64,000 bases of DNA from Leifsonia sp. 71-9. GTDB lineage: Bacteria > Actinomycetota > Actinomycetes > Actinomycetales > Microbacteriaceae. The position numbers and the translations under genes were made by a program. The stretch is taken from positions 520,255 through 584,254 of the forward strand of contig NZ_MKVJ01000017.1 in NCBI RefSeq assembly GCF_001898805.1, in the 5' to 3' direction. Position 1 is the first letter of the stretch; each line of letters begins with the position of its first letter. This document shows, piece by piece, positions 31,869 through 45,847 of this stretch. Below the pieces are notes generated by a model. The model made no database searches, was not told the DNA's origin, and worked only from the letters and a program-made list of their open reading frames with translations.

Positions 31869-32849
31869 GTGAGCCTGAACACCCCCACCCTGACCGACGT
31901 GGCCGCGCACGCGGGCGTGTCGCTCGCCACGGCCTCCCGCGCGCTCAACGGCAGTGCCCGCAAGGTCAACCCCGAGCTGCAGGAGCGCGTGCTCGCCTCC
32001 GCGCGCACGCTCGGCTACAGCGCGAACGTGCAGGCGCAGGCGGTCGCGCGCGGCACCAGCAACGTCGTCGCGCTCGTCGTCGGCGACATCGCCGACCCGT
32101 ACTTCGCCTCGATCTCGTCCGGCGTCGTGCGGGTGGCCGACGAGCGGGGGCTGGTCGTGACGATCACCGCCACCGGCCCCTACGCCGGACCGGAGTCGAC
32201 GGCCAGGGAGGAGGCGGCGCTCGACGCCCTCCGCGGCCAGCGCCCGCGGGCCGTCGTGCTGGCCGGCAGCCGGGTCGTCGGCACGGACACCCGCCCCGGC
32301 GACGGCGGCCGCGTGGCCGCCATCGGCTCCGGCGCACGGGGACTGCGCACCGTCGACGTCGACAACAGGGGAGGCGCGGCGGCCCTCGCCACGGAGCTCC
32401 TCGCGCTCGGATACCGGGATGTCGCCGTGCTCGCCGGGCCGGAGGAGCTCGTGACCGTGCGCGACCGCGTGGACGGGTTCCGCTCGGTCCTGCCCTCGGC
32501 GCGGGTCGTGCACGCGGAGTTCACGCGGGAGGGCGGCCATCGGGCGATGACCGCCCTGCTGGCCGCGGGGGAGCGGCCCGACTGCGTCTTCGCGGTCAGC
32601 GACGTGATGGCGATCGGCGCGATGGCGGCGCTGCGCGAGGCCGGCATCGTTCCGGGCGAGGGGATCGGCGTGGCCGGCTTCGACGACATCCCGCTCGTGG
32701 CCGACGTGACCCCGGCCCTCACCTCCGTCGCGCTGCCGCTGGCCGACATCGGCGCGCGCGCCCTCGAGCTGGCCCTCGCGGACGACCCGTCGCCCGCGGA
32801 GCCGGTGCCGGCCGCGGTGCGCCTGCGCGCCTCCACGCCGCGTCGCTGA
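31869..32849 (+). CDS. LacI-family transcriptional regulator (second of tandem pair)
   Basis: A 326-residue LacI protein: LTDVAAHAGVSLATASRALNGSARKV helix-turn-helix at the very N-terminus, hinge GYSANVQAQAVARG, VALVVGDIADPYFASISSGV, and VAGFDDIPLVADVTPALTSVALPLADIG. It is paralogous to its upstream neighbour along its length, but recognition residues differ (SLATASRA against SQPTASRV), so a different operator is expected. The GGnAAGCGCTTTCC sites at 39.5-41.0 kb are possible targets. GTG 31869 again follows a -10 box by 6 bases. It converges on the importer operon, stops only 19 bases apart. Confidence 0.92.
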   Translation: MSLNTPTLTDVAAHAGVSLATASRALNGSARKVNPELQERVLASARTLGYSANVQAQAVARGTSNVVALVVGDIADPYFASISSGVVRVADERGLVVTITATGPYAGPESTAREEAALDALRGQRPRAVVLAGSRVVGTDTRPGDGGRVAAIGSGARGLRTVDVDNRGGAAALATELLALGYRDVAVLAGPEELVTVRDRVDGFRSVLPSARVVHAEFTREGGHRAMTALLAAGERPDCVFAVSDVMAIGAMAALREAGIVPGEGIGVAGFDDIPLVADVTPALTSVALPLADIGARALELALADDPSPAEPVPAAVRLRASTPRR

Positions 32850-32868: not shown

Positions 32869-33768
32869 CTAGAGCTTGACGCCGCCGGAGATCAGGTCGA
32901 TCTTCCAGTAGCGCTGCAACGACAGGAAGAGGATCGCGAGCGGTACGATCGACACCAGCACGCCGGCGATGACGATGGAGTACTGGGCCGCCTGGCCGCC
33001 GGTGATGATCATCAGCCCGTAGAGGCCGAGCGTGAGCGGGTACAGCTGGTCGTTGTTGAGCATCACGAACGGCAGGAGGAAGTTGTTCCAGATCCCGATG
33101 AACTGGAGCAGGAACACGGTCACCAGCGCCGGCATCATCAGTCGCGACCCGACGGACCAGAAGATGCGCCACTCGCTGCCGCCGTCGATGCGGGCGGCCT
33201 CCATGATCTCGTCGGGCACCGAGGCCTCCGCGTAGATCTTGCACAGGTAGATCGCGAAGGGCGACACCAGCTGGGGGAGGATGACGGACGCGTAGTTGTT
33301 CGTCATCCCGAACTTCGCCATGAGCAGGAACTGGGGGATGGCGAGCATGATCTGCGGCAGCAGCACGGCGGCCACGATGAGGCGGAAGATCCATTTGGAC
33401 CCGGCGAAGCGGTACTTGCCGAGCGCGTAGCCGGCCGCACCCGCGACGACGGTGGAGAGGACCCCGCCGCCGATCGCGTAGATCACCGAGTTGAGCGCCC
33501 AGCGACCGAAGATGCCGCCGTTGTAGGTGAAGAGCGCCTGCAGGTTGGTCCAGAAGCCGCCGGTGAAGGAGGGGACGAACGGCGGGGTGGAGAACAGCTG
33601 ATCGTTGGTCTTGGTCGACGCGATGACGATCCAGAGCACGGGCAGCACGCAGTAGAGCGCGCCGACGATGAGGATGAGGGTGGGCACGATGCGCACACCG
33701 GTGCGGGAGCTCAGCGGGGCTCGTCCGGTGCGCGGGGCGGTGGGCCGCGGGGCGGTCAGGGTGGTCAT
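32869..33768 (-). CDS. CUT1 sugar ABC importer permease (MalG-like)
   Basis: A 299-residue inner-membrane permease with six helices. CUT1 MalG landmarks are VLPVLWIVIASTK near the N-terminus, YALGKYRFAGSKW, LLPQIMLAIPQFLLM, the EAA motif EIMEAARIDGGSEWRIFWSVGSRLMMPAL, and the final RYWKIDLISGGVKL. It pairs with the MalF-like product of 33,765-34,739; ATG 33768 overlaps that gene's stop. As the last gene of the operon it lies nose to nose with the second LacI gene. No ATPase gene is present, so a shared MsiK-type ATPase encoded elsewhere probably drives the importer, as is common in actinobacteria. Confidence 0.92.
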   Translation of the reverse strand: MTTLTAPRPTAPRTGRAPLSSRTGVRIVPTLILIVGALYCVLPVLWIVIASTKTNDQLFSTPPFVPSFTGGFWTNLQALFTYNGGIFGRWALNSVIYAIGGGVLSTVVAGAAGYALGKYRFAGSKWIFRLIVAAVLLPQIMLAIPQFLLMAKFGMTNNYASVILPQLVSPFAIYLCKIYAEASVPDEIMEAARIDGGSEWRIFWSVGSRLMMPALVTVFLLQFIGIWNNFLLPFVMLNNDQLYPLTLGLYGLMIITGGQAAQYSIVIAGVLVSIVPLAILFLSLQRYWKIDLISGGVKL

Positions 33769-34739
33769 CGGGTCTCCCTCCGGGCGATGCGCCGGCCGAT
33801 CACGTTGACGAGCACGGTGGCGCCGACCGTCATGACGATGAGGATGAACGAGGTGGCCGCTCCCTCGTAGATGCTGTTGTTGACGAACGCGTCGGTGTAG
33901 ACGCGCATCAGCGGCACCCAGGTGGACGAGATCGCGTTGGCGAGCGGCTTGAGCGTCGTGGGCTCGTTGAACAGCTGCAGCGCGCCGATCACCGAGAAGA
34001 GCGCGACCATCGTGATCGCCGGCGCGATGAGGGGCAGCTTGATGCGCAGCGCGATCTGCAGCTCGGTCGCGCCGTCGAGCTCCGCCGCCTCGAAGAGGTC
34101 CTTCGGGAGGCTGCGGACGGCGGTGTAGAGGATGACCATGTTGAAGCCGACCACGCCCCAGACCGCCACGTTGGCGACGGAGAAGAAGATCCCGGTGCTC
34201 CCGAAGTAGTCGATGACCTTGCCGCCGATGGGGCTGGTGGCGGGCAGGTACATGAACCCCCAGAGCAGCGAGGCGACGACGCCGGGCACCGCGTAGGGCA
34301 GGAAGATCGCCAGCCGGGTGACGCCGACGAGTCGCGCCCGCTTGACGTCGAGGCAGAGGGCGAACGTGGTGGCGAGCACGATGGTGAGCGGGACGCCGAT
34401 GACGGCGACGATCAGCATGCGCCCGAGGCCGGCCCAGAACTCGGGGTCGACGAGGGTGCTGACGTAGTTGGCGAAGCCGGCGAACACCTCGGTGGGTGCG
34501 CCGCCGCCGAGCAGGCCGCCGCCGACCTTCAGCTGCAGGAAGCTGAGGACCACCGCGTAGACCCCCGGTGCCACCGTGAACAGGAGCAGGAGGACGACGG
34601 CGGGCGTGACGAGGAGGACGGGCAGAAGGGTCGGCCCGCGGCGCGGGCGACGCCCGGTCCTGGGCGGGGTGGCGGCGGGGGCGCGGCGCCCGGAGCGCGC
34701 CGGCGCCGGTGGTGCGGTGCTGTCTCCGATGACGGCCAT
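33765..34739 (-). CDS. CUT1 sugar ABC importer permease (MalF-like)
   Basis: A 324-residue permease with a basic, Pro/Arg-rich cytoplasmic N-terminus, TPAVVLLLLFTVAPGVYAVVLSF first helix, FAGFANYVSTLVDPEFW, and EAA loop DLFEAAELDGATELQIALRIKLPLIAPA. ATG 34739 has GAGGAGA upstream; an in-frame start 32 codons earlier would run into the C-rich intercistronic tract and is rejected. A low-complexity tract and hairpin separate it from the binding-protein gene, consistent with reduced permease dosage. Confidence 0.92.
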   Translation of the reverse strand: MAVIGDSTAPPAPARSGRRAPAATPPRTGRRPRRGPTLLPVLLVTPAVVLLLLFTVAPGVYAVVLSFLQLKVGGGLLGGGAPTEVFAGFANYVSTLVDPEFWAGLGRMLIVAVIGVPLTIVLATTFALCLDVKRARLVGVTRLAIFLPYAVPGVVASLLWGFMYLPATSPIGGKVIDYFGSTGIFFSVANVAVWGVVGFNMVILYTAVRSLPKDLFEAAELDGATELQIALRIKLPLIAPAITMVALFSVIGALQLFNEPTTLKPLANAISSTWVPLMRVYTDAFVNNSIYEGAATSFILIVMTVGATVLVNVIGRRIARRETR

Positions 34740-34764
34740 GAGCTGATTCTCCTCGGACGGAGGT

Positions 34765-34803
34765 GGATGGGGGATGGGGGATGGGGGAAGGGGATGAGGG
34801 TGG
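34765..34803 (-). repeat. 7-bp tandem repeat / G-rich (template) C-rich (RNA) tract
   Basis: The + strand reads GGATGGG three times, then GGAAGGG and more G-runs. The operon runs on the - strand, so the message is C-rich and nearly G-free here: a possible Rho loading region, while the template strand could form a G-quadruplex. Similar tracts occur at 37,670-37,694 and 47,398-47,424, also in - strand intercistronic gaps. Confidence 0.5.
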
Positions 34804-34809
34804 AGCCGA

Positions 34810-34844
34810 GCGGGGACGACGGGGTTTGCGGGCATCGTCCCCGC
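34810..34844 (-). terminator. Intercistronic hairpin after the CUT1 binding-protein gene
   Basis: GCGGGGACGA (34810-34819) and TCGTCCCCGC (34835-34844) form a perfect 10-bp stem with a 15-base loop, directly downstream of the binding-protein stop. Its position matches the hairpins at 7215 and 19270; no T-run follows. Confidence 0.55.
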
Positions 34845-34863
34845 CCGGGCGGGTGGCAGCGGG

Positions 34864-36177
34864 TCAGCCGGCGACCTTGAAGCCGATCTTCTTCATGTCG
34901 GTGACCGTGTCGGACTGCATGGTGTCCAGCGCGGCCGACAGCTGCGACTTGTTCTGCAGGGCCGCGGCGAACGCGTTCGAGTACGAGTCGAACGTGACGT
35001 TCGCGTTGGGTCCCCAGATGTCGAAGGTCCGCACGCCCTTGGCGACCGACGCCATCAGCGTGTTGTAGTCCGGCTGGTTCGACATGAACGGCGGCGGGGT
35101 CTTCAGCTCGGGGGCCGACTGGTTCGACAGGCTGGCCGGGAAGACCTGCACGTTCGTGATCAGCGAGGCGACGCCCTCCTTCGAGGAGTTCATCCACTTG
35201 ACGAACTTGGCCGCCTCCGCTGGGTGCTTCGAGTTGGCCGTGACGGCCTCCGTCTCACCGCCCCAGATGCCGACCGTGTCGTCCCCCGCGGTCCAGGCGG
35301 GGAGCGCGACGGCCTCCCACTTGCCCGCGGTGTCCTTGGCGATCGACGGAAGCTGGTTGGGAGCCCACTGCGCCCCGACCCAGCCGACGAGCGTGCCGTT
35401 GTTCATGTCGGTGTTCCACTGGGCGGACCAGTTGGGCTCCGGGCTGACGACGCCCTGGTCGACCAGGCCGCCCCAGAAGTCGGCGACCTTCTTGCTGGCG
35501 GCGTCGTTGATGTTCACCTTCCAGGTGTCGCCGGAGGCGCTCCACCAGTTGGCGCCCGCCTGCTGCGCGAGGCCTGCGAACCAGCCCGGGTCGGCGGCGG
35601 TGAAGTTGCCGATGTACTTGGAGGGGTCGGCCGCGTGGATCTTGGCCGCGTCCGCCGCGTACTCGTCCCAGGTCTTCGGCGGGGTGAGCCCCATCGAATC
35701 CCAGATGTCCTTGCGGTAGAAGAACACCATCGGGCACACGTTCTGCGGAACGCCGTAGGTCTTGCCCTCGAACTGCACCTGGGCGAGCGTCGACTTCGAG
35801 AAGTCGCCCGAGAGGTCGCCGACGTACTTGTCGATCGGGATGACCACCTTGTTGGCGATCAGGGCCGGGAGGGCCTGGTACTCGACCTCGGTGACGTCGG
35901 GGTTGGTGCCGGCCTTGTTGTTGGTGATGAGCTTGTTGTACAGGGTGTAGCCGGTGCCGGACGGCTTGGTCAGCTTGACCTGGATGTCCGGATTGGCCTT
36001 GTTCCACTCGTCGACGACGGCCTGCATGCCGCCGTCCCAGTTGACGTAGGACAGGGTGACCTTGCCGCCGCTCGTCGAGCTTCCGCTCGGCGAGCTGGAG
36101 CAGCCGGTCAGGACCGTGGCGGTCGCGGCGGCGACGCCGACGATCGCGCCGATGGTCCTCAGCGTTGACTTCCTCAC
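34864..36177 (-). CDS. CUT1 sugar-binding lipoprotein
   Basis: A 437-residue family 1 solute-binding lipoprotein. Signal peptide with lipobox LTGC (23-26), Ser/Gly-rich spacer, then SYVNWDGGMQAVVDEWNKANPDIQVKL and TNPDVTEVEYQALPALIANKVVIPIDKYV, the usual start of CUT1 binding domains; VPQNVCPMVFFYRKDIWDSMGLTPPKTWDEYAADA and KHPAEAAKFVKWMNSSKEG follow. GTG 36177 is preferred over ATG 36186: AAAGGAG is adjacent to that ATG (no spacing) but 9 bases from the GTG. The substrate is probably an oligosaccharide or glycoside; the operon adds an aldehyde dehydrogenase and a hydroxyacid dehydrogenase. Confidence 0.92.
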   Translation of the reverse strand: MRKSTLRTIGAIVGVAAATATVLTGCSSSPSGSSTSGGKVTLSYVNWDGGMQAVVDEWNKANPDIQVKLTKPSGTGYTLYNKLITNNKAGTNPDVTEVEYQALPALIANKVVIPIDKYVGDLSGDFSKSTLAQVQFEGKTYGVPQNVCPMVFFYRKDIWDSMGLTPPKTWDEYAADAAKIHAADPSKYIGNFTAADPGWFAGLAQQAGANWWSASGDTWKVNINDAASKKVADFWGGLVDQGVVSPEPNWSAQWNTDMNNGTLVGWVGAQWAPNQLPSIAKDTAGKWEAVALPAWTAGDDTVGIWGGETEAVTANSKHPAEAAKFVKWMNSSKEGVASLITNVQVFPASLSNQSAPELKTPPPFMSNQPDYNTLMASVAKGVRTFDIWGPNANVTFDSYSNAFAAALQNKSQLSAALDTMQSDTVTDMKKIGFKVAG

Positions 36178-36233
36178 TGTGTGCATCTCCTTTGATGGGG
36201 TTCCGTGGTGCGGTGGTCGTGGTGCGGGGCGGT

Positions 36234-37655
36234 TCAGCCCTCGGCCCAGGCGGGGTAGCGCACGGGGGAGGTCTGGAGGCCGATCCACTGCCGGCGGGTG
36301 AAGCCGGCGAGCTGGCCCTCGCCGCCGTGGCGGGCGTAGCCGTCGTTCACGTGCACTTCGTTGCTCGACACGCGCTCGGCGAATGCGAGCCCGCGCATCG
36401 GGTCTCCGGTGAAGACCGAGTTCATCAGCGTCCGGTGGCGGTTGACGAGCGCGAGCGCCTCGGCTTCGTCGTCGACGACGGTGATGGGCATCACCGGGCC
36501 GAAGATCTCCTCGGTGAACACCGGAAGGTCGGGTGTGACGCCGGTGAGCACGGTGGGCTGGTAGAACAGGCCGTCGTGGGTGCCGCCGGTAGCGATCGTC
36601 GCGCCGCCCGCCACCGAGGGCGCGACGAGGCCGTCGGCGAAACGGCGCAGCTGGGTCTCGCTGACGATCGGGCCGAGGTCGACGTCGTCGCGCAGGGGGT
36701 CGCCCACCCGGAGGGCGCGGACGCGCTCCACGACGGCCTCGGTGAACGCGTCGGCCACCGCACGCTGCACGATGTGGCGGCCTGCCGAGATGCAGGTCTG
36801 CCCCTGGTACCAGAGGGCGGCCCACACCGCGCAGCTGGCGGCCTGGTCGATGTCGGCGTCGTCGAGCACGACGAACGCGTTGTCTCCGCCGAGCTCGGTG
36901 GCGACCGGGGTGAAGGTGCGGGCCGCGAAGGCGGCGATCTGGTGACCGACCTCGAACGAGCCGGTGAAGTGGATGAGGTCGAGCCCGGGATGCTCGCTGA
37001 GCGTGCGACCGGTGGTCGGGCCGTCGCCCGGGACGACCGCGAGCACGCCCGCCGGGACGCCGGCGGCCAGCGCCGCCTCGGCGAGGATCTGCCCTCCCGC
37101 CACCGGAGTCAGCTCCGCGGGCTTGAGCACGACGGCGTTGCCGTAGGCGAGGCCGGGGGCCAGGGCGCGCATCGCCAGGCTCATCGGGTAGTTCCAGGGC
37201 ACGATCAGGCCGATCACGCCGAGCGGGACCGCGCGCGAGAGCGACAGCTTGCCCTGCTTGTACGGCGGGAGGATGCTGCCCGCGTTCTCGGTCAGCTGCG
37301 TCGCCGAGTTGTTCAGCTGGGTGATCGACTGGCCGAGCTCCTCCTCCGCCTTCTCGAGGGTGCCGCCGGTCTCCCGGATGAGCAGGGTCAGCAGCTCGTC
37401 GCGCCGGTTCTCCAGCTCCTCGGCGAAGCGGCGGATGATCGCCGAGCGCGTGTTGGCGTCCACGTCGCCCCAGCCCGGCTGGGCACGGCGGGCCGCCTCG
37501 ACCGCCCGGTCGACCTGGGCCGGGGACGCGTTCCCGTACGTGGCGAACGGGATGCCGGCCGCCTTGTCGAGCACGGGCAGGCCGTCGCCGGCCTCCGGCC
37601 GTTCGAACCGGCCATCGATGAACACCTGGACGTCGTAGTCGCGCAGCTCGCGCAT
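36234..37655 (-). CDS. NAD(P)-dependent aldehyde dehydrogenase
   Basis: A 473-residue aldehyde dehydrogenase: VIGLIVPWNYPMSLAMRALAPGLA, KPAELTPVAGGQILAEA, HFTGSFEVGHQIAA, ATELGGDNAFVVLDDADID (catalytic Glu), QGQTCISAGRHIV (nucleophile Cys) and TEEIFGPVMPI. The pattern is closest to benzaldehyde/vanillin-type dehydrogenases, so an aromatic aldehyde from a glycoside aglycone is one possibility. ATG 37655 is chosen for its AGGAGG site; an ATG at 37715 would overlap the upstream gene and has no ribosome site. A G/C-biased tract (37,670-37,694) lies just before it. Confidence 0.9.
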   Translation of the reverse strand: MRELRDYDVQVFIDGRFERPEAGDGLPVLDKAAGIPFATYGNASPAQVDRAVEAARRAQPGWGDVDANTRSAIIRRFAEELENRRDELLTLLIRETGGTLEKAEEELGQSITQLNNSATQLTENAGSILPPYKQGKLSLSRAVPLGVIGLIVPWNYPMSLAMRALAPGLAYGNAVVLKPAELTPVAGGQILAEAALAAGVPAGVLAVVPGDGPTTGRTLSEHPGLDLIHFTGSFEVGHQIAAFAARTFTPVATELGGDNAFVVLDDADIDQAASCAVWAALWYQGQTCISAGRHIVQRAVADAFTEAVVERVRALRVGDPLRDDVDLGPIVSETQLRRFADGLVAPSVAGGATIATGGTHDGLFYQPTVLTGVTPDLPVFTEEIFGPVMPITVVDDEAEALALVNRHRTLMNSVFTGDPMRGLAFAERVSSNEVHVNDGYARHGGEGQLAGFTRRQWIGLQTSPVRYPAWAEG

Positions 37656-37669
37656 GGGGCGTGCCTCCT

Positions 37670-37694
37670 GGGTGGGGGTGGGGGACGGGGTGGG
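37670..37694 (-). repeat. G-run tract on template strand (C-rich in message)
   Basis: Five G-runs on the + strand (GGG-T-GGGGG-T-GGGGG-AC-GGGG-T-GGG) lie in the gap between the hydroxyacid dehydrogenase stop and the aldehyde dehydrogenase start. The message is a C-rich, G-poor stretch. It fits either a G-quadruplex in the template or a Rho-binding site. Confidence 0.45.
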
Positions 37695-37707
37695 TACGGA
37701 GACGGTC

Positions 37708-38718
37708 TCAGGCAACGGCGATCAGAGCTTCCTTCGTGACGGGATGTTCGGCCGGCCGGCCGGCGGCGAACCGTTGGACCTCGTGCAGGGCGCACTCGCC
37801 GAGGCGGCGCAGCTCGGTGCCGAGCGCGCCGGCCACGTGCGGGGTCAGGACGACGCCGGGCAGCGTGCGCAGGGGGTGACCGGCCGGAAGCGGCTCCGGG
37901 TCCGTCACGTCGAGCACGACGCGGAGGCCGGAGTCGCGCACGGCGGCGGTGAGGGCCTCCTGATCGACGATCGGGGCCCGCGCGGTGTTGATGAGCGTCG
38001 CCCCGTGGGGGAGCAGGGCGAGCTGAGCGGCGCCGATCATCCCGATCGTCTCGGGCAGGAGCGGCGCGTGCACGCTGACGATGGTGGAGCGCTCGAACAG
38101 CTCGTCGAGGCCGGCCTGGCGCGCCCGGCGAAGGATCGGGTCGCCCGGCTCCAGCGAGGGGTCGTAGAGCAGCACGTCGATGTCGAACGGATCGAGCAGC
38201 TCGATCACGCGGCGGCCGACCCGGGAGGCGCCGACGATGCCGACCGTGCGGTTGAAGTTGCCGATGGACGGGTCGGGCTCGCGCGTGTAGACGTCGGGGT
38301 CGGCCGCGTAGCCGCGGATGTAGTCGGGGACGCGCTTGCCCGCGAGGAGGATCATCGCCAGGGTGTACTCGGCGACCGGGTACGCGTTGGCGCTGGCCGC
38401 GCTGGTGACGAGCAGGCCGTGCTTCCAGACCGCGTCGTCGATGTGGCCCTTGACGGTGCCGGCCGCGTGGACGATGGCGCGCAGGCGGGGCATCCTGGCG
38501 AGCTCCTCCGCCCCGATGCGCGGTGCGCCCCATCCGGTGATGAGCACCTCCACCCGCTCGAGGAGGCCGGCGGGGGCCGACGCGAAGTCGGTGATCGTCT
38601 GCGTCGGGTCCAGGTCGGCGGCGCGGGTGAGCGCGGCCAGGTCGTCGGGGCCGAACAGCAGTCCGGGCAGGTCCGGCCGCATGGCGAATGCGGCGACGGG
38701 CGTGCGTCGTGCTGTCAT
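37708..38718 (-). CDS. D-isomer-specific 2-hydroxyacid dehydrogenase
   Basis: A 336-residue NAD-dependent dehydrogenase. Cofactor loop VGIVGASRVGRRV (a GxSxxG variant of GLGxIG), catalytic Arg in INTARAPIVDQEAL, Glu in DVTDPEPLPAGHPL and His in VVLTPHVAG form the family's R-E-H set. The N-terminal substrate domain contains VLITGWGAPRIGAEEL. ATG 38718 follows GAGGAG; an upstream in-frame start would include the operator DNA and is rejected. First gene of the CUT1 importer operon. It may interconvert a 2-keto and 2-hydroxy acid derived from the imported sugar. Confidence 0.9.
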   Translation of the reverse strand: MTARRTPVAAFAMRPDLPGLLFGPDDLAALTRAADLDPTQTITDFASAPAGLLERVEVLITGWGAPRIGAEELARMPRLRAIVHAAGTVKGHIDDAVWKHGLLVTSAASANAYPVAEYTLAMILLAGKRVPDYIRGYAADPDVYTREPDPSIGNFNRTVGIVGASRVGRRVIELLDPFDIDVLLYDPSLEPGDPILRRARQAGLDELFERSTIVSVHAPLLPETIGMIGAAQLALLPHGATLINTARAPIVDQEALTAAVRDSGLRVVLDVTDPEPLPAGHPLRTLPGVVLTPHVAGALGTELRRLGECALHEVQRFAAGRPAEHPVTKEALIAVA

Positions 38719-38740
38719 CGTCGACTCCTCGATCGGGTTG

Positions 38741-38769
38741 GATTGCGCATTCCCAGAATGCGCATTCCC
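38741..38769 (-). promoter_or_regulatory. Two LacI operators upstream of the 38.7-32.9 kb operon
   Basis: GATTGCGCATTCCC (38741-38754) and AGAATGCGCATTCCC (38755-38769) are two adjacent sites, centres 15 bp apart; the second contains the perfect palindrome GAATGCGCATTC. Both match the site in the first LacI gene's promoter (GGGGATGCGCATTCCC, 30785-30800), so that LacI protein is the predicted repressor. Confidence 0.7.
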
Positions 38770-38838
38770 AACTATGCGACGCGGATCGTCGTTCGTCAAG
38801 AAAAACTTCGGAGAGGAGTGCTGAGCGCCGGCCGGACG

Positions 38839-39501
38839 TCAGGAGACGAGCCAGCGGACCGCCCGCTCGAGGATCCGGCGGTGCGTGGGCGCGTCGTACG
38901 ACGCGGCGTCGTGGCCGAGCGCGTCGTAGAACACCTTCGCGTCGCCGTAGCGGCGCGCCCAGACGAGCGGGTGCTCCCGGCCCTCGTGCTCGTGCGAGGC
39001 GAGCGCCACCACGGCCGGGTCGACCCGCAGGTCCGTGTAGCGCTCGTCGACCACGGTGAAGTCGTCCAGCCCGGCGACGAGGGGGTCGCGCTCCGGGTGC
39101 ACCAGGATGGTCGCCGGCCCGCGGTCCGGATGGAAGGAGGTGCCGCGCGCCCAGACCCCGCCGAGGATCGCCTCCCACTCCGGGATGCCGCGGAGCGACG
39201 TCGAGGTGACGTGCGACACCAGCAGTGGGCGCCCGCGGCGGAGGTGCGCCAGCAGGCCGAGGCGGCCACGCGCCTCGGCCTCGGGATCGGGATCGCCGGT
39301 GTGCGCCGGGTCGCCGATGTTGAGGACCAGCAGGTCGGGGTCGTCGTCGGTCAGGGCGGCCATGCGCGCGTCGACCTCCTCCGAGGTCTCCACCTCCAGG
39401 CCCTGGTCGCGGACGATCGCGGCCAGCCGGGCCGAGGTCTCCGGGAAGGGGTGCCACGGGTCGGCGTAGCGGCCGGCGCCGCTCAGGATCAGTGCTCGCA
39501 T
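38839..39501 (-). CDS. ThuA-domain protein (third of four)
   Basis: A 220-residue ThuA-fold protein: RALILSGAGRYADPWHPFPETS at the start, DLLVLNIGDP near residue 55, RGRPLLVSHVTSTSLRGIPEWEAILGG, DFTVVDERYTDLRVDP, and the terminal KVFYDALGHDAASYDAPTHRRILERAVRWL, the standard ThuA ending (YxxLGH). ATG 39501 has AGGAGG upstream. It is divergent from the MFS gene at 39,699, and a LacI-type site (39532-39545) lies in its leader, so it probably belongs to that catabolic unit and not to the downstream importer operon, which has its own operators. Confidence 0.85.
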   Translation of the reverse strand: MRALILSGAGRYADPWHPFPETSARLAAIVRDQGLEVETSEEVDARMAALTDDDPDLLVLNIGDPAHTGDPDPEAEARGRLGLLAHLRRGRPLLVSHVTSTSLRGIPEWEAILGGVWARGTSFHPDRGPATILVHPERDPLVAGLDDFTVVDERYTDLRVDPAVVALASHEHEGREHPLVWARRYGDAKVFYDALGHDAASYDAPTHRRILERAVRWLVS

Positions 39502-39531
39502 GGGGTCCTCCTGCTGTTCACGCTACGGGAT

Positions 39532-39545
39532 GGTAAGCGCTCTCC
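39532..39545 (-). promoter_or_regulatory. LacI-type operator near the ThuA-like gene
   Basis: GGTAAGCGCTCTCC shares the AAGCGCT core and flanks with the sites at 39,646-39,660 and 41,024-41,037. It lies 31 bases before the - strand ATG at 39501, a typical repressor position. Confidence 0.55.
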
Positions 39546-39609
39546 GCTGCGCCGCGCCAATCCCGCGCCCCTCCCGCACGCTCCTGCACCCGCGGATTCC
39601 CCGCACGGG

Positions 39610-39660
39610 TTGACAGTCGCGCGGGGCGGTCTACGGTGACCCACCGGCAAGCGCTTTCTC
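39610..39660 (+). promoter_or_regulatory. Promoter and LacI operator for the MFS operon
   Basis: A consensus -35 TTGACA (39610-39615) and -10 TACGGT (39632-39637) are separated by 16 bases. The expected start of transcription falls just before GGCAAGCGCTTTCTC (39646-39660), a LacI-type palindrome around AAGCGCTT. A repressor there would block early transcription. Confidence 0.65.
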
Positions 39661-39698
39661 GCGCTCGAAACCGATCACCGTGGATCGTAAGGAGAACC

Positions 39699-40979
39699 GT
39701 GTCCGACACCGCCGTCGCCTCCCCGCGCCTCACCCCCGACCAGCGCAACGCGTTCGCCGCGTCCCTGCTGGGCTGGATGATGGATGCCTTCGACTACTTC
39801 ATCATCGTGCTCGTCTACGCCGACATCGGCGCCGAGTTCGGCGTCCCGCTGGAGCAGATGGCCTTCCTGACGACCATCACGCTCATCATGCGCCCCGTCG
39901 GCGCCTACCTGTTCGGGGTGTGGGCCGACCGGGTCGGCCGCCGCATCCCGCTGATCGCCGACGTGTGCTTCTACTCGGTCGTCGGCTTCCTCTGCGCGTT
40001 CGCGCCGAACTTCACCGTGCTGTTCATCCTGCGCCTGCTGTACGGCATCGGGATGGGCGGCGAGTGGGGTCTCGGCGCAGCGCTCACGATGGAGAAGGTG
40101 CCGCGCACCCGCCGCGGCCTGTACTCCGGCATCCTGCAGGCGGGCTACTCGGCGGGCTACCTGCTCGCGGCGCTCGCCTTCCTGCTCGTGCACTCGGTGT
40201 TCGGGCTGAGCTGGCGCTGGCTGTTCGCGCTGAGCATCCTCCCGGCGCTGATCTCGCTGATCATCCGCTCGCGGGTGCGCGAGTCCGAGGTGTGGGAGAC
40301 GTCGCGGGACAAGCTGCGCGCGAGCGGCAGCTCGATCCGCCGGGTCTTCTTCGACGGTGCGGTGCTGCGCCGGTTCGTCTACCTCGTGCTCCTGATGGCG
40401 GCCTTCAACTGGATGAGCCACGGCACGCAGGACATCTATCCGACGTTCCTCAAGGCCACCGACAACGGCGGTGCCGGGCTCGATGCGGCGACGGCGGGAT
40501 GGATCGCGGTCGTCTACAACGTGGGCGCGATCATCGGCTGCATCGTCCTCGGCTCGCTGTCCGACCGCTGGGGGCGCAAGGCGACGATCATCCTGGGCGC
40601 AGCACTGACCCTGCCGATCATCCCGATCTTCGCCTTCTCCACGACGGCGGGGATGCTGTGCCTGGGGTCCGCCCTCATCCAGTTCACGACCCAGGGAGCG
40701 TGGGGAGCCATCCCGGCGCATCTGAACGAGATGTCGCCGAACGCCATCCGCGGCTTCTACCCCGGCGTCACGTACCAGCTCGGCAACGTCATCGCGGCGT
40801 TCAACCTGCCGATCCAGCAGGCGCTGGCGCCGCAGCTCGGCTATCCCTGGGCGATGGCGTCGACGGTCGGGGTGGCGGCGATCGCCGTGATCGTGCTGAC
40901 CGCGATCGGCAAGCAGGCCCACGCGGTGTCGTTCACGGAAGAGAACGCGGGCGAGGCTCCCGCCGCCAGGGAGGCGTGA
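39699..40979 (+). CDS. MFS transporter of the sialate/carboxylate:H+ symporter (SHS-like) type
   Basis: A 426-residue major-facilitator carrier with twelve predicted helices. LLGWMMDAFDYFIIVLVYADIG at the start is characteristic of the SHS/aromatic-acid symporter groups (the DAFDYF motif), and GVWADRVGRRIPLIADV is the MFS loop 2-3 signature; LGSLSDRWGRKATIILG is its repeat in the second half. GTG 39699 follows AAGGAG (39689-39694). Substrate could be a sugar acid or related carboxylate, in line with the downstream glycerate kinase. It begins the five-gene operon ending at 45,506, although a second promoter lies after it. Confidence 0.88.
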   Translation: MSDTAVASPRLTPDQRNAFAASLLGWMMDAFDYFIIVLVYADIGAEFGVPLEQMAFLTTITLIMRPVGAYLFGVWADRVGRRIPLIADVCFYSVVGFLCAFAPNFTVLFILRLLYGIGMGGEWGLGAALTMEKVPRTRRGLYSGILQAGYSAGYLLAALAFLLVHSVFGLSWRWLFALSILPALISLIIRSRVRESEVWETSRDKLRASGSSIRRVFFDGAVLRRFVYLVLLMAAFNWMSHGTQDIYPTFLKATDNGGAGLDAATAGWIAVVYNVGAIIGCIVLGSLSDRWGRKATIILGAALTLPIIPIFAFSTTAGMLCLGSALIQFTTQGAWGAIPAHLNEMSPNAIRGFYPGVTYQLGNVIAAFNLPIQQALAPQLGYPWAMASTVGVAAIAVIVLTAIGKQAHAVSFTEENAGEAPAAREA

Positions 40980-40991
40980 AGTGGGAGGGGC

Positions 40992-41037
40992 TTGCGCCAC
41001 CCGGATCGGGCCGGTACCGTTCTGGTAAGCGCTTTCC
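40992..41037 (+). promoter_or_regulatory. Internal promoter and LacI operator before the Gfo/Idh gene
   Basis: TTGCGC (40992-40997), 17 bases, TACCGT (41015-41020), then GGTAAGCGCTTTCC (41024-41037) across the expected transcription start. The operator is the most symmetrical of the three AAGCGCTT sites. It gives the enzyme genes their own regulated promoter, independent of the transporter. Confidence 0.65.
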
Positions 41038-41084
41038 CGCATTGCGGAGCGCGAGCATCGCACGCAGAGCACAAAGGAGTACAC

Positions 41085-42245
41085 GTGTCGTCGATCGGCA
41101 TCATCATGAACGGCGTCTCCGGACGCATGGGCTACCGGCAGCACCTGGTGCGGTCGATCCTCGCGATCCGCGAGCAGGGCGGCGTGCTGCTCTCCGACGG
41201 CACGCGGGTGCAGGTCGAGCCGCTGCTCGTCGGCCGCAGCGAGGAGAAGCTCGCCGAGCTCGCGAAGCGCCATGACATCCCGGACTACACGACCGACCTC
41301 GACGCGGCGCTGGCCGACGACCGCTGGCAGATCTACGCCGACTTCCTGGTCACGAAGGCGCGCAGCACCGCGATCCGCAAGGCGATCGCCGCCGGCAAGG
41401 CCATCTACACCGAGAAGCCCACCGCGGAGTCGTTCGAGGAGGCGCTCGAGCTCGCCCGCCTCGCCGACGAGGCCGGCATCAAGAACGGCGTCGTGCACGA
41501 CAAGCTCTACCTGCCCGGGATGCGCAAGCTCAAGCGGCTCATCGACTCCGGCTTCTTCGGCCGCATCCTCTCGGTGCGGGGCGAGTTCGGCTACTGGGTG
41601 TTCGAGGGGGACTGGCAGGCGGCGCAACGCCCCTCCTGGAACTACCGCGCGGAGGACGGCGGCGGGATCGTCGTCGACATGTTCCCGCACTGGAGCTACG
41701 TGCTCGAGAACCTGTTCGGGCGGGTCGAGTCGGTCTACGCGCACGCGGTCACCGAGATCCCGCAGCGCGTCGACGAGCAGGGCCGGCCGTACGCCGCCAC
41801 CGCCGACGACGCCGCGTACGCCATCTTCCAGCTGGCCGGCGGCGTGACCGCGCAGCTGAACTCCAGCTGGACCACCCGGGTCAACCGCGACGAGCTGGTC
41901 GAGTTCCAGGTCGACGGCACGCACGGCAGCGCCGTCGTCGGGCTCTTCGGCTGCAAGATCCAGCCGCGCAACGCGACGCCCAAGCCGGTGTGGAACCCCG
42001 ACCTCGCCGACGAGCACGACTACGACGGCGACTGGATCGAGTCGCCCGCCAACGACGTGTTCGAGAACGGCTTCAAGACGCAGTGGGAGGAGTTCCTGCG
42101 CCACGTGCTGGAGGACGGCCCGAACGCGTTCGACTTCCTCGCCGGCGCGCGCGGCGTGCAGTTGGCGGAGGAGGGCCTCCGCTCGTCGCGCGAGGGCCGC
42201 CGCATCGACCTCGCCGAGGTGCGCCTTCCCGAGGTCGCCCGATGA
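41085..42245 (+). CDS. Gfo/Idh/MocA-family dehydrogenase
   Basis: A 386-residue dehydrogenase of a divergent branch: N-terminal IGIIMNGVSGRMGYRQHLVRSI is a variant dinucleotide loop (GVSGRMG), ADFLVTKARSTAIRKAIAAGKAIYTEKPTAES carries the EKP catalytic Lys, and GGGIVVDMFPHWSYVLENLFG places a His in the DxxPHW version of the DxGxH motif. C-terminal SPANDVFENGFKTQWEEFLRHVLE is typical. GTG 41085 has AAAGGAG at 41073-41079. It precedes a DUF993 gene and a TIM barrel with four-base overlaps. Probably NAD-dependent oxidation of a sugar or cyclitol. Confidence 0.88.
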   Translation: MSSIGIIMNGVSGRMGYRQHLVRSILAIREQGGVLLSDGTRVQVEPLLVGRSEEKLAELAKRHDIPDYTTDLDAALADDRWQIYADFLVTKARSTAIRKAIAAGKAIYTEKPTAESFEEALELARLADEAGIKNGVVHDKLYLPGMRKLKRLIDSGFFGRILSVRGEFGYWVFEGDWQAAQRPSWNYRAEDGGGIVVDMFPHWSYVLENLFGRVESVYAHAVTEIPQRVDEQGRPYAATADDAAYAIFQLAGGVTAQLNSSWTTRVNRDELVEFQVDGTHGSAVVGLFGCKIQPRNATPKPVWNPDLADEHDYDGDWIESPANDVFENGFKTQWEEFLRHVLEDGPNAFDFLAGARGVQLAEEGLRSSREGRRIDLAEVRLPEVAR

Positions 42246-43399
42246 CCGACGTCGCCGTGCGCGCCGTCACGCTGGTCCGCGCGGACGGCACCACCTCCAC
42301 CGCCGACCTCGCGGCGCCGGCCGTGACCGAGCGTCCCACCTCTCCGCTGCAGTCGCGCGTCGCCTACGCGGCGGCGCACGTCATCCCGAAGCCCTGGGCC
42401 GACAACGTGCCAGGCGCTCCGGCCGACATCGACTGGGATGCGACGCTCGCCTTCCGCCGGCACGTCTACGGCTGGGGCCTCGGCGTCGCCGACGCGATGG
42501 ACACCGCCCAGCGCAACATGGGGCTCGACGCCGCCGCGACCCGCGAGCTCATCCGCCGCAGCGCCGACGAGGCCCGCGCGGTGGGCGGCTCGGTCGTTGC
42601 CGGCGTGAACACCGACCACGTGGCGGACGAGGTCATCGGCCTCGACGCCGTGATCGACGCCTACGTCGAGCAGCTGCACTTCACCGAGGATGCGGGCGCC
42701 GGGGTCGTGCTCATGGCGAGCCGGCACCTCGCGCGCGCCGCGCAGACGCCGGCCGACTACGAGCGCGTCTACGGGGCGGTGCTCGCGCAGGCGGCCGCCC
42801 CGGTCGTCCTGCACTGGCTCGGCGAGGCGTTCGACCCCGCGCTGGCGGGCTACTTCGGCGACGCCGACACGGTCCTGCGGATCATCGAGGCGGGCGGTGA
42901 CAAAGTGGCGGGCATCAAGATGAGCCTCCTCGACGCGGACGCCGAGGTCGCGCTGCGCTCCCGGCTGCCCGAGGGCGTGCGGATGTTCACCGGCGACGAC
43001 TTCAACTACGTCGGGCTGATTGAGGGAACGGGGGAGGCGCACTCCGACGCGCTCCTCGGTGCGTTCGCCGCGCTCGCGCCCAGCGCCTCCGCGGCCATCC
43101 AGGCGCTCGACGCGGGCGACTCCGAGCGCTACCGCGCCATCCTCGGCCCGACGGAGGCGCTGTCGCGGCAGGTCTTCGCCGCGCCGACCTACTTCTACAA
43201 GACCGGCGTCGCCTTCCTCTCCTGGCTCAACGGCCACCAGGACGCCTTCGCCATGGTCGGCGGCCTGCACGCCGCGCGCAGCCTCCCGCATCTCTCGGAG
43301 ATCGTGCGGCTCGCCGGGGCGTGCGGGGCCCTCGAACGCCCCGACCTGGCCGCCCAGCGCTGGTCGGACCTGCTGCGCCTGAACGGGGTCGACGCGTGA
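42242..43399 (+). CDS. DUF993-family protein (TIM-barrel aldolase/dihydrodipicolinate-synthase-like)
   Basis: A 385-residue protein of the poorly characterised DUF993 family, which resembles dihydrodipicolinate-synthase-type TIM barrels. Recognisable parts are AAHVIPKPWADNVPGAPADIDWDATLAFRRHVYGWGLGVADAMDTAQRNMGLD at the start, VVAGVNTDHV, APVVLHWLGEAFDPALAGYFGD, KVAGIKMSLLD (Lys at the position where the Schiff-base Lys sits in the aldolase family), and FTGDDFNYVGLIEGTG. ATG 42242 overlaps the dehydrogenase stop and its stop overlaps the next GTG, so it is tightly co-produced with a Gfo/Idh dehydrogenase and a TIM-barrel isomerase. A retro-aldol or elimination step on a keto-sugar acid is an attractive but unproven role. 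Confidence 0.82.
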   Translation: MTDVAVRAVTLVRADGTTSTADLAAPAVTERPTSPLQSRVAYAAAHVIPKPWADNVPGAPADIDWDATLAFRRHVYGWGLGVADAMDTAQRNMGLDAAATRELIRRSADEARAVGGSVVAGVNTDHVADEVIGLDAVIDAYVEQLHFTEDAGAGVVLMASRHLARAAQTPADYERVYGAVLAQAAAPVVLHWLGEAFDPALAGYFGDADTVLRIIEAGGDKVAGIKMSLLDADAEVALRSRLPEGVRMFTGDDFNYVGLIEGTGEAHSDALLGAFAALAPSASAAIQALDAGDSERYRAILGPTEALSRQVFAAPTYFYKTGVAFLSWLNGHQDAFAMVGGLHAARSLPHLSEIVRLAGACGALERPDLAAQRWSDLLRLNGVDA

Positions 43400-44265
43400 C
43401 CGCCCCGGCCCGGCTGTCGCTCAACCAGGCCACGATCAAGTACGCGAACCTGGCCGACGCACTGCGGCTGACCGCGGCGGCCGGCATCGAGGCCATCGGC
43501 GTCTGGCGCGAGCCCGTCGCCGAGGTGGGGCTGGCGGAGGCGACCCGGATGGTCGCCGACAGCGGCCTCCGCGTCTCCAGCCTCTGCCGCGGCGGGTTCT
43601 TCACCCTGCCCGAAGGCCCCGAACGCCGCGCGGCCATCGACGAGAACCGGCGCGCGATCGAGGAGACGGCGGCGCTCGCCGCGGCCGGCGCTCCCGGGTC
43701 CGCCGCGGTGCTCGTGCTCGTCGCCGGCGGCCTGCCCGCGGGATCGACGGACCTCGTCGGCGCGCGCGGCCGGGTCGGCGACGCCCTCGCCGAGCTGGAG
43801 CCGGAGGCTCGCGCAGCCGGGGTGACCCTCGCCATCGAAGCCCTGCACCCGATGTACGCCGCCGATCGCGCCGTCGTGTCTACGCTCGGGCAGGCCCTCG
43901 ACCTGGCCGAGCCGTTCCCGGCCGAGTCGGTCGGCGTGGTGGTGGACACCTTCCACATCTGGTGGGACCCGCAGGTGCTCGAGCAGATCGCCCGCGCCGG
44001 CGCCGCCGGACGCATCGCGAGCTACCAGGTCTGCGACTTCCTCACCCCCATCCCCGCCGACGCACTGCTCGGCCGGGGAATGATGGGCGACGGCCACATC
44101 GACTTCGCCGGCCTGACCGCCGCGGTCGAGGCGACGGGATACGCGGGGGACGTCGAGGTGGAGATCTTCAACGCCGACATCTGGGCCGCCGATCCGGAGG
44201 AGGTCGTGGCCCGCACCGTCCGGGCGTTCGAGCGCAGCATCCCGCTGCGGTCTGTGCCAGTGTGA
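43396..44265 (+). CDS. Sugar phosphate isomerase/epimerase-like TIM-barrel protein
   Basis: A 289-residue xylose-isomerase-like barrel: LSLNQATIKYANLADALRLTAAAGIEAIGVWREP, VSSLCRGGFF, VTLAIEALHPMYA, VGVVVDTFHIWWDPQV and GDVEVEIFNADIW are the ordered motifs of the family, with Glu, Asp/His and Glu metal ligands. The CRGGFFTLPEG segment occurs in enzymes annotated only as sugar phosphate isomerases. GTG 43396 overlaps the DUF993 stop (GTGA). Likely the third enzyme of the 41-45 kb pathway, before glycerate kinase. Confidence 0.86.
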   Translation: MTAPARLSLNQATIKYANLADALRLTAAAGIEAIGVWREPVAEVGLAEATRMVADSGLRVSSLCRGGFFTLPEGPERRAAIDENRRAIEETAALAAAGAPGSAAVLVLVAGGLPAGSTDLVGARGRVGDALAELEPEARAAGVTLAIEALHPMYAADRAVVSTLGQALDLAEPFPAESVGVVVDTFHIWWDPQVLEQIARAGAAGRIASYQVCDFLTPIPADALLGRGMMGDGHIDFAGLTAAVEATGYAGDVEVEIFNADIWAADPEEVVARTVRAFERSIPLRSVPV

Positions 44266-45506
44266 GACGCGTGACCGCCCGCACCGTCGTCGTCGCCCCG
44301 GACTCGTTCAAGGGCTCCGCCACGGCCGCCGAGGTGGCGGAGGCGCTCGGCGCGGGCTGGCACAGCGTGCGGCCGCAGGACGCGGTGGTGCTCGCACCGA
44401 CGGCCGACGGCGGCGAGGGGACCCTGGACGCGTTCGCCGTGGCCGTGCCCGGAGCGCAGCGACGACCGGTGCGTGTGCTCGGCCCGTCCGGCGACACCGT
44501 GGACGCGGCCTGGCTGGCACTGCCGGACGGTTCGGCCCTCGTCGAGCTCGCCGCGACCAGCGGGCTGGGCCTCCTGCGATCTCCCGCCCCCTTCGACGCC
44601 CACACCGTCGGCTTCGGCCAGGCCATCGCCGCCGCGCTCGACGCCGGAGCGACCTCCCTCCTCCTCGCGATCGGCGGCAGCGCCTCGACCGACGGCGGCG
44701 CCGGGATGCTGACCGCGCTCGGCGCCCGGCTCCTCGATGCGGACGGGCAGCCGGTCGCCCCCGGCAATCGCGGCCTGGCGGACCTCGCCCGGGTGGATCT
44801 CTCCGGCCTCCGGCCGCTCCCCGCCGGTGGCGCGCACATCCTGAGCGACGTGACCAGCCCGCTGTCGGGGCCGGATGGCGCCGCCGCGGTCTTCGGACCG
44901 CAGAAGGGGGCGGCCCCCGCGGATGTCCCGGAGCTCGACGCCGGGCTCGCGCGGCTGGCGGCGGTGCTGGGGGCCGCGCTGGAGGCGGGGCAGGAGGGCG
45001 CGGATTGCCCGCACTCGGACGCAGGTGCTGCCTCCGCAGCCGTCACCGCGTCCGCTGTCGCACCGGCTTCCGCCGCCTCCGCTGTCGCACCGGCTTCCGC
45101 CGCCGCCTCCGTTGTCGCCGTCGACGAACCGGGTACAGGGGCCGCGGGAGGCACCGGGTACGGCCTGCGGGTGTGGGGCGCGACGATGGCTCCGGGTGCG
45201 GCGGCCGTCGCCGACGCGCTCGGACTGCCGGAGCGCATCGCGTCGGCCGACCTCGTCATCACGGGGGAGGGGCGCTACGACAGCCAGTCGGCCTCCGGCA
45301 AGGCGCCGGAGCACGTCGCCGCCCTCGCGCGCCGTGCCGGCATCCCGGTGCTGCTCGCCGCCGGAGCGATCACCGCGGAGCCGCACGGCTTCGCCGACGC
45401 CGTCGCCCTCACCGACCTGGCCGGCGGCACCGACGCCGCCCTGGCCGACCCGCTCCGCTGGGCCCGCGCCGCCGGCGCCGCCCTCGCCTCCCGCGCCGCC
45501 GACTGA
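44262..45506 (+). CDS. Glycerate kinase (GlxK/GarK type) with low-complexity insert
   Basis: A 414-residue glycerate kinase that phosphorylates glycerate with ATP. Family motifs are VVVAPDSFKGSATAAEVAEAL, PTADGGEGTLDAF, ELAATSGLGLL, AIGGSASTDGGAGMLTALGARLLD, SDVTSPLSGPDGAAAVFGPQKGA and ADLVITGEGRYDSQSASGKAPEHVA. An Ala/Ser/Val-rich insert of about 50 residues (roughly 246-296) interrupts the fold and contains an exact 27-bp tandem duplication (45051-45077 and 45078-45104, SAVAPASAA twice). GTG 44262 overlaps the upstream stop; GTG 44271 is an alternative. It implies the pathway yields glycerate, feeding 2- or 3-phosphoglycerate into glycolysis. Confidence 0.9.
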   Translation: MRRVTARTVVVAPDSFKGSATAAEVAEALGAGWHSVRPQDAVVLAPTADGGEGTLDAFAVAVPGAQRRPVRVLGPSGDTVDAAWLALPDGSALVELAATSGLGLLRSPAPFDAHTVGFGQAIAAALDAGATSLLLAIGGSASTDGGAGMLTALGARLLDADGQPVAPGNRGLADLARVDLSGLRPLPAGGAHILSDVTSPLSGPDGAAAVFGPQKGAAPADVPELDAGLARLAAVLGAALEAGQEGADCPHSDAGAASAAVTASAVAPASAASAVAPASAAASVVAVDEPGTGAAGGTGYGLRVWGATMAPGAAAVADALGLPERIASADLVITGEGRYDSQSASGKAPEHVAALARRAGIPVLLAAGAITAEPHGFADAVALTDLAGGTDAALADPLRWARAAGAALASRAAD

Positions 45507-45847
45507 CGCACCACCGCAGCCGCGGCCAACGGAGGAGATCCGCGCCCACCGCTCACGCATCCCCTCCGTTCCCTGCTCGACCCGGGCGCGTCGCGTGGAA
45601 CCTCCTCCGTTGCCCACGGCGTGGTCAAAGGAGGAGACTCGCGCCCACCGCTCACGCATCCCCTCCGTTCCCTGCTCGAGCCGGGCGCGTCGCGTAGAAC
45701 CTCCTCCGTTGCCCACGGCGTGGACAACGGAGGAGATCCCGCGCCCGAGGCGGCGTGTCGGAGGGGAACGGAGGGGATTCGGGGTGGGGAGGGGCTGGAT
45801 CTCCTCCGAAAGCGCTGCGGGCGCCGCGCGCCCTACGGCCGCGCGCC
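45507..45847. other. Gene-free stretch between convergent operons
   Basis: These 341 bases lie between the glycerate kinase and xylulokinase stops. They hold 2.1 copies of a 99-bp tandem repeat (45531-45740) with internal inverted repeats, a G-rich + strand tract (45762-45797), and GGATCTCCTCCG (45797-45808), the reverse complement of the repeat's start. Near the right end a 16-bp unit (CGCGCCCTACGGCCGC-like) is duplicated as it enters the 3' end of xylB. No credible open reading frame, promoter or RNA gene was seen. Confidence 0.7.
45531..45740. repeat. 99-bp tandem repeat with inverted-repeat ends
   Basis: Units begin with GGAGGAG at 45531 and 45630, and a third partial unit starts at 45729; the first two differ at only a few positions. 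Each unit carries CAACGGAGGAG-like sequence near one end and CTCCTCCGTTG near the other, so each can form a long hairpin. The position between convergent genes suggests a role in two-way termination or simply slippage expansion. Confidence 0.75.

Follow-up and report, generated by a model that had tools for sequence, protein, structure and literature searches.

A candidate sugar-type catabolic regulon built on DUF993, a divergent branch of the dihydrodipicolinate synthase superfamily, in Leifsonia sp. 71-9

The DUF993 gene of Leifsonia sp. 71-9 lies in a stretch of 64,000 nucleotides (contig NZ_MKVJ01000017.1, positions 520,255 to 584,254), called here the window and used for all coordinates, between genes for a Gfo/Idh/MocA dehydrogenase and a xylose-isomerase-like TIM barrel, with a glycerate kinase gene behind them. 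The locus seems to belong to a sugar-type catabolic regulon of an uncharacterised kind, centred on a divergent enzyme of the aldolase superfamily. A probability of about 0.5 is given to the reading that these genes form a catabolic regulon under LacI control which breaks down an imported sugar or sugar acid, and in which DUF993 would act as an aldolase-type lyase of class I, its product being converted to glycerate. This reading is carried by a conserved three-gene core, by a predicted fold of the dihydrodipicolinate synthase (DHDPS) type with an invariant lysine in DUF993, and by operator-like sites that the genes have in common. A sequence-only reading of the same DNA had proposed that the four genes oxidise, isomerise and cleave a sugar and save the three-carbon acid as phosphoglycerate, and this is supported in part.

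41085 to 42245, plus strand: Gfo/Idh/MocA dehydrogenase, GTG start; Pfam PF22725, PF02894 and PF01408; closest solved sequence 3OQB, 526 bits.
42242 to 43399, plus strand: DUF993 protein, divergent enzyme of the DHDPS/N-acetylneuraminate lyase (NAL) superfamily with K226 as putative Schiff-base lysine; PF06187, 546 bits.
43396 to 44265, plus strand: xylose-isomerase-like TIM barrel, GTG start; PF01261, 108 bits; solved relatives 3JU2 (SMc04130), 3QC0 and 7VPF.
44262 to 45506, plus strand: glycerate kinase of the PF02595 family, start at GTG 44262 or GTG 44271; PF02595, 342 bits; TIGR00045, 298 bits.

All four genes lie where the sequence-only reading had placed them, with Pfam matches well above cut-off, and both kinase models exceed theirs (342 against 23.3 bits for PF02595, 298 against 168 bits for TIGR00045). 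Of the four-base overlaps claimed to link them, those of Gfo with DUF993 (ATGA, 42242) and of DUF993 with the TIM barrel (GTGA, 43396) are clear, while the third depends on a kinase start at GTG 44262; the gene caller took GTG 44271, which leaves a 5-base gap. The kinase is the sole gene that a PF02595 search of this genome found. Within its gene, a 27-base in-frame tandem repeat of 2.2 copies (45046-45104) encodes an alanine-rich stretch, and immediately 3' of it a 99-base unit is repeated 2.2 times at 45527-45746 with 92% match.

The DUF993 protein is matched by PF06187 over residues 10-383 (cut-off 24 bits), which is its sole Pfam match at E 0.001. PF00701, the model of the DHDPS family, gave no match at that threshold, and a search of the genome with it recovered two other genes and not the DUF993 gene. 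An AlphaFold2 model (predicted local distance difference test, 92.1; predicted template modelling score, 0.90) has the DHDPS-type (beta/alpha)8 barrel of the DHDPS/NAL superfamily. The model superposes on the solved homologue 4DNH, which is SMc04132 of Sinorhizobium meliloti (E 5.5e-108, 364 bits, residues 34-384), with Z 54.6 and 48% identity, and on DHDPS entries with Z 30.8-32.0, a root-mean-square deviation of 2.3-2.5 over about 290 residues and 12-18% identity; Foldseek concurs with the DHDPS-type fold. Profile alignment with hhalign against 12 DHDPS-family proteins from the fetched loci gave E 2.7e-6 and superposed K226 on the invariant DHDPS lysine. This is the lysine of the motif KVAGIKMSL, which the sequence-only reading had singled out, and it is invariant in all 197 distinct DUF993 sequences. 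Its conservation and its place within predicted strand 222-228 correspond to those of the Schiff-base lysine in strand 6 of the superfamily, and the lysine is thus conserved and predicted to lie in a barrel strand.

Other residues were found invariant in the same 197 sequences, namely T88, H191, W192, T250-G251-D252-D253, Y319 and K320. The catalytic tyrosine of DHDPS at the end of strand 5 is not kept; an invariant HWLG (191-194) is found, in which His191 falls at or beside the tyrosine column. T88, in the motif MDTAQR, resembles by eye the threonine of the GTTGE motif and lies outside the hhalign alignment, which begins at residue 95. With the tyrosine missing and no match to PF00701, DUF993 is best placed, from its predicted fold and alignment, as a divergent branch of the DHDPS/NAL superfamily outside the DHDPS family proper. 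Structure prediction thus returned the aldolase-type fold that had been expected, and fold and lysine give good grounds for the guess that DUF993 works through a Schiff base; it may be an aldolase, a dehydratase or another enzyme of this kind.

The conserved unit is the trio of Gfo, DUF993 and TIM barrel, with glycerate kinase as a minority but recurrent partner. In a survey of 148 loci, the TIM barrel gene lies 3' of DUF993 in 144 and the Gfo gene 5' of it in 140, and in 69 the trio alone makes up the entire same-strand run (directon). Of 14 congener loci fetched, 13 have all four genes together, as does a Glaciihabitans plasmid. The arrangement is not due to chance, because the order of the trio is kept and the four-gene form recurs. 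DUF993 was found in 120 of the 394 actinomycete genomes sampled, in 15 of 28 genomes of the window's genus and in 28 of 337 alphaproteobacterial genomes of an even sample; Gfo adjoins it in 20 of 29 alphaproteobacterial loci, some of which lie on short contigs. Neighbourhoods were fetched for 60 of the 120 actinomycete genomes, hand-picked for spread. Both locus sets are enriched in relatives of the window, as 80 loci are those most like it. The survey of 148 leaves out three loci with no called DUF993 gene (L042, L141, L170) and a duplicate (L149), and the set of 197 leaves out L238, which has no DUF993, three short reads that are all kinase-linked (L049, L051, L112) and two duplicates. A Microbacteriaceae-like trio, whose DUF993 is 71% identical to the window's, was also seen in an assembly titled Vibrio cholerae strain 35D (L118, WNZI01000010.1), which is probably mislabelled or contaminated.

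The second line of evidence comes from operator-like sites, for which the neighbouring features of the window are needed.

31869 to 32849, plus strand: LacI-family protein (PF00356), candidate regulator of the regulon.
32869 to 36186, minus strand: carbohydrate-type ATP-binding cassette (ABC) importer, with permeases at 32869-33768 and 33765-34739 and a solute-binding protein (PF01547) at 34864-36186.
36234 to 37655, minus strand: aldehyde dehydrogenase (PF00171); all NCBIfam matches among those listed are below equivalog cut-offs.
37708 to 38718, minus strand: D-2-hydroxyacid dehydrogenase (PF02826, PF00389); the open reading frame extends to 38799, and the ATG at 38718 is 3' of the operator-like site.
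38753 to 38770, minus strand: operator-like site ahead of the operon of 2-hydroxyacid dehydrogenase, aldehyde dehydrogenase and ABC importer, matrix score 19.7.
38839 to 39501, minus strand: ThuA-domain protein (PF06283).
39644 to 39661, plus strand: operator-like site in the divergent gap between the ThuA and transporter genes, matrix score 19.7.
39636 to 40979, plus strand: major facilitator superfamily (MFS) transporter, true start probably 39699, 3' of the operator-like site; TIGR00891, 460 of 553 bits.
41022 to 41039, plus strand: LacI-type operator-like site, CTGGTAAGCGCTTTCCCG, upstream of the Gfo gene, matrix score 23.6.

In 94 of 141 loci, where chance would give about 1.9, the 200 bp before Gfo contain a palindrome of the AAGCGCTT type. 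A matrix was trained on 140 loci, with the window and 14 loci of its genus set aside, and at a score of at least 16 it detected just three sites in the window, before Gfo, in the ThuA/MFS gap and before the 2-hydroxyacid dehydrogenase; none of 60 resampled windows had a site at 19.0 or more. A plain consensus search with up to two mismatches gave 8 matches in the window against 2.9 expected, and single weak matches of this kind mean little; the matrix sites are the ones relied on here. The site at Gfo is present in 15 of 15 loci of the genus, and in all six genus loci that have the 2-hydroxyacid dehydrogenase at 50% identity or more a site lies within 250 bases of its start. One site is common to this dehydrogenase and ThuA in L219 and L226, and the dehydrogenase has its own site in two other actinomycete families (L088 and L091; two of eight in that survey). 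Thus the 2-hydroxyacid and aldehyde dehydrogenases, which the sequence-only reading had left outside the gene set, are brought in by the operator-like sites. The trio, the 2-hydroxyacid dehydrogenase operon and the ThuA/MFS gap would then form one catabolic regulon.

The choice of regulator is a proposal. The LacI protein at 31869-32849 was the best-scoring of three LacI queries from the window in 115 of 197 loci, and in L223, L230 and L231 a LacI gene immediately precedes the trio. The window and five congeners (L218, L219, L220, L225 and L226) have the block of ABC importer, aldehyde dehydrogenase and 2-hydroxyacid dehydrogenase (32869-40979) ahead of the trio, where the three loci just named have the LacI gene in its place. 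The MFS protein is nearest to the sialate:H+ symport subfamily, under its cut-off. In some actinomycetes a permease (c14) of an NMT1-type ABC importer has an operator-like site in 11 of 13 loci (L069, L072, L075, L081, L139, L147, L153 and L154 are among those with the permease); this importer, of a type unexpected for sugar, is a candidate importer of the pathway substrate. A second Gfo/Idh gene (25724-26881) belongs to a sugar-type gene run farther upstream in the window.

The link to glycerate kinase is real and recurrent and not obligatory. Of the 120 actinomycete genomes, 7 have a PF02595 kinase at most 5 kb from DUF993, 12 at most 10 kb and 15 at most 20 kb, and the 12 at 10 kb compare with about 0.4 expected by chance (0.43, from an estimated mean genome of 6.9 Mb and one position per kinase, second pieces of split matches being omitted). 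In 14 of 15 DUF993-bearing congeners, among them the window's genome, it follows DUF993 on the same strand at a distance of about 2 kb, and in 28 of 148 loci it is within seven genes. Among the 197 distinct loci, 50 are kinase-linked, 41 with PF02595 (radius 10 kb) and 9 with a MOFRL-type kinase (radius 15 kb), and the minimum number of changes on the tree is 29; Rhizobium anhuiense (L040) was scored unlinked there, its kinase lying outside the fetched stretch. The two kinase types have unrelated folds, and tblastn with the window's kinase did not recover the MOFRL kinases. Some proteobacterial loci have the MOFRL type in place of PF02595: MOFRL-type kinases (PF13660/PF05161) were confirmed by Pfam near DUF993 in Paracoccus yeei and Octadecabacter, and annotated glycerate kinases occur near it on S. 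meliloti pSymA and in Paracoccus ferrooxidans, Erwinia, Peteryoungia and Roseibium, and about 11 kb off in R. anhuiense. Within the stretches seen, 5 of the first 11 plasmid loci had a glycerate kinase and 6 had none; the Caballeronia and Rhizobium TH2 plasmids, viewed later, likewise had none in view, and the count reached 11 of 18 annotated plasmid records, three later ones having been picked for a known nearby kinase.

Some separately transcribed kinases also have the operator. In DUF993-bearing genomes 4 of 31 such kinases have their own site (L050, L126, L271, L272); the kinase of L271 is about 12 kb from DUF993, and that of L272 lies on a different contig, its ATG immediately preceded by the site. 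The 31 comprise 18 unlinked kinases, after two of 20 fetched (L282, L286) were dropped for want of a tblastn match to the window's kinase, and 13 in the locus outside the trio's directon. Control copies, of which 12 belong to 11 congeners that have no DUF993 and 3 are second copies in DUF993-bearing congeners, had no site in the surrounding 7.2 kb (0 of 15), and in the 12 DUF993-free ones the best score anywhere was 5.4. The linkage elsewhere that the sequence-only reading called for therefore holds, in excess over chance, in two kinase families and with an operator common to both partners in some genomes, for a minority of loci.

All reactions of the following scheme are ones that we infer from these features. 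The substrate would be imported by the ABC or MFS transporter, a hydroxyl of it would be oxidised by the Gfo/Idh enzyme, and the PF01261 barrel would shift the keto group or epimerise. PF01261 enzymes can shift the keto group of sugar acids, as 2-oxo-tetronate isomerase does; the window's barrel gave no match to the NCBIfam model of that enzyme, NF043033. K226 of DUF993 would form a Schiff base with the resulting keto acid, followed by a retro-aldol split. In the most economical version a 2-keto-aldonate is cut between C3 and C4 to hydroxypyruvate and an aldehyde; hydroxypyruvate would be reduced by the co-regulated 2-hydroxyacid dehydrogenase to D-glycerate, from which glycerate kinase would make 2-phosphoglycerate, and the remaining fragment would be oxidised by the aldehyde dehydrogenase. 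Where no kinase is linked, one encoded elsewhere in the genome may serve. ThuA is the only regulon gene without a role in this scheme. A structure of Escherichia coli DHDPS with hydroxypyruvate is indicated by the available part of the record of PDB entry 3C0J. A bolder and speculative form, to which we give little credence as yet, is that DUF993 represents a new aldolase type cleaving 3-hydroxy-2-keto-aldonates such as 2-keto-gluconate and 2-keto-xylonate to hydroxypyruvate and aldehyde, in a non-phosphorylative sugar-acid route via hydroxypyruvate and glycerate that would extend across much of the actinomycetes and some proteobacteria.

Several observations weigh against the aldolase-to-glycerate reading. 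The missing DHDPS tyrosine has been noted. The kinase is in the trio's directon in just 15 of 148 loci and within 10 kb in just 2 of 29 alphaproteobacterial loci, and 27 of the 31 separate kinases lack the operator, all four bearers being in the window's own family; among the unlinked kinases fetched from outside that family, none had a site. Co-occurrence at the genome level looked perfect, with PF02595 in 120 of 120 DUF993-bearing actinomycetes and a kinase of one type or the other (PF02595 or MOFRL) in all 28 DUF993-bearing alphaproteobacteria, and was rejected as evidence when controls rendered it uninformative: PF02595 is in 28 of 28 congeners, DUF993 present or not, and the MOFRL kinase, found in 26 of the 28 alphaproteobacteria, is also in 31 of 80 DUF993-free genomes drawn from the same sample of 337 and in 21 of the 26 such controls of at least 3.4 Mb. 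Furthermore, one proteobacterial clade of DUF993 mostly lacks Gfo and is accompanied by CoA-transferase and acyl-CoA genes; its partners include CoA-transferase, enoyl-CoA hydratase, acyl-CoA dehydrogenase, short-chain dehydrogenase/reductase, GMC, aldo/keto reductase and Dabb proteins, and most DUF993s in such surroundings form this one clade. The pathway there may differ from the scheme above. The 13 loci in this context comprise seven with a MOFRL kinase, one with PF02595 and five without a kinase in view. Glycerate kinase and CoA-transferase also occur together in deoxyribonate catabolism, and this points again to a C3 acid, perhaps by another route.

A further point of this kind is that 5-dehydro-4-deoxyglucarate dehydratase (KdgD) stands directly behind the trio, instead of a kinase, in nine directons (among them L061, L063, L064, L066, L083, L161, L164 and L176), eight of which also have a mandelate-racemase-type enzyme. 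This bears on the rather unlikely alternative that DUF993 is itself a Schiff-base dehydratase or hydratase comparable to KdgD, which would dehydrate the oxidised sugar acid while glycerate came from another enzyme. The DHDPS superfamily has both kinds of activity, as the NCBIfam models for KdgD, dapA and NanA all match one same protein, and the place of His191 at or beside the tyrosine column suggests altered chemistry. However, the presence of a KdgD-type protein behind the trio argues that DUF993 does not simply have KdgD activity, and a dehydratase alone gives no account of the repeated recruitment of kinases.

It was also considered, as quite unlikely, that Gfo oxidises C3 of a glycoside, the PF01261 barrel eliminates or hydrates, DUF993 processes the keto sugar and glycerate kinase is a loose helper. 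ThuA is tied to 3-keto disaccharides, and its gene has one of the operator-like sites. Pairs of Gfo/Idh and PF01261 proteins act in this way in characterised operons, according to the available portions of PMC10628242 and PMC10066097, but the word 'dihydrodipicolinate' is in neither main text. Moreover, the window's Gfo protein scored 53 bits against the 650-bit cut-off of the levoglucosan dehydrogenase model NF052479, and such a route offers no reason for glycerate kinase or 2-hydroxyacid dehydrogenase. A D-xylose oxidation pathway, with Gfo as the D-xylose dehydrogenase and a xylonate derivative as the substrate of DUF993, is improbable: 20 of 197 loci, that of the window included, have xylA and xylB next to the trio, and plasmid pAO1, from which Mihasan is said to have described a D-xylose dehydrogenase in 2013, carries an aldehyde dehydrogenase annotated 'D-xylose catabolic process' beside Gfo, DUF993 and glycerate kinase, but xyl genes are absent from most loci, the three matrix sites of the window all lie elsewhere, and the literature search found no paper joining 'nicotinovorans' with 'xylose dehydrogenase'. 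The xylose operon was rejected as part of the system because xylB lacks an operator-like site in all nine genus loci where it occurs.

No paper with 'DUF993' or 'PF06187' was found in the literature search, though a member structure (4DNH) was released in 2012, and public annotation calls such proteins 'dihydrodipicolinate synthase family protein'. The conserved trio, the common operator and the recruitment of two glycerate kinase families lead to a testable pathway hypothesis for DUF993. If true, the aldolase-type reading would give a function to a large family and be sharper than the automatic name.

Among the closest known systems is that of S. meliloti, in which SMc04132 (4DNH, from structural genomics) belongs to the same DUF993 family and SMc04130 (3JU2) is the matching TIM barrel. 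The literature search found no function for 4DNH, 3JU2, 3OQB, 7VPF or 3QC0, the only paper with one of these codes (3JU2) being unrelated, and nothing on function under the SMc or SMa locus tags or the gene names of the trio, the SMa match being an unrelated paper. In the available part of PMC12542648, SMc04132 and SMc04133 are each mentioned once, in a regulon table, and the available part of PMC11387232 mentions SMc04134 as a regulator only. DUF993 has the barrel fold, the position of the Schiff-base lysine and profile similarity in common with DHDPS and NAL (PF00701), but differs from them in the lack of a PF00701 match, the tyrosine not kept, a longer chain and an identity of 12-18%. The operons for levoglucosan and 3-keto-glycosides (LgdA-LgdB1-LgdC; A. 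tumefaciens OGE) likewise have adjacent Gfo/Idh and PF01261 genes in sugar catabolism, as far as the texts available describe them, whereas those texts name no DUF993 or glycerate kinase and their Gfo is only distantly related. Paenarthrobacter strain LG01, the levoglucosan-grown strain according to the accessible text of PMC10066097, has the trio with xylA and xylB near (L181, NZ_JAQPPK010000003.1). Oxidative deoxyribonate pathways are alike in oxidation, cleavage to a C3 acid and conversion by glycerate kinase to 2-phosphoglycerate, with a CoA-transferase in one version, but the portion of PMC6365646 available has the cut made by a beta-keto acid cleavage enzyme or thiolase, with the C3 acid arising as glyceryl-CoA, and no DHDPS-fold protein. 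The pAO1 cluster of Paenarthrobacter nicotinovorans has aldehyde dehydrogenase, Gfo, DUF993 and glycerate kinase genes in one run, with no TIM barrel gene between them.

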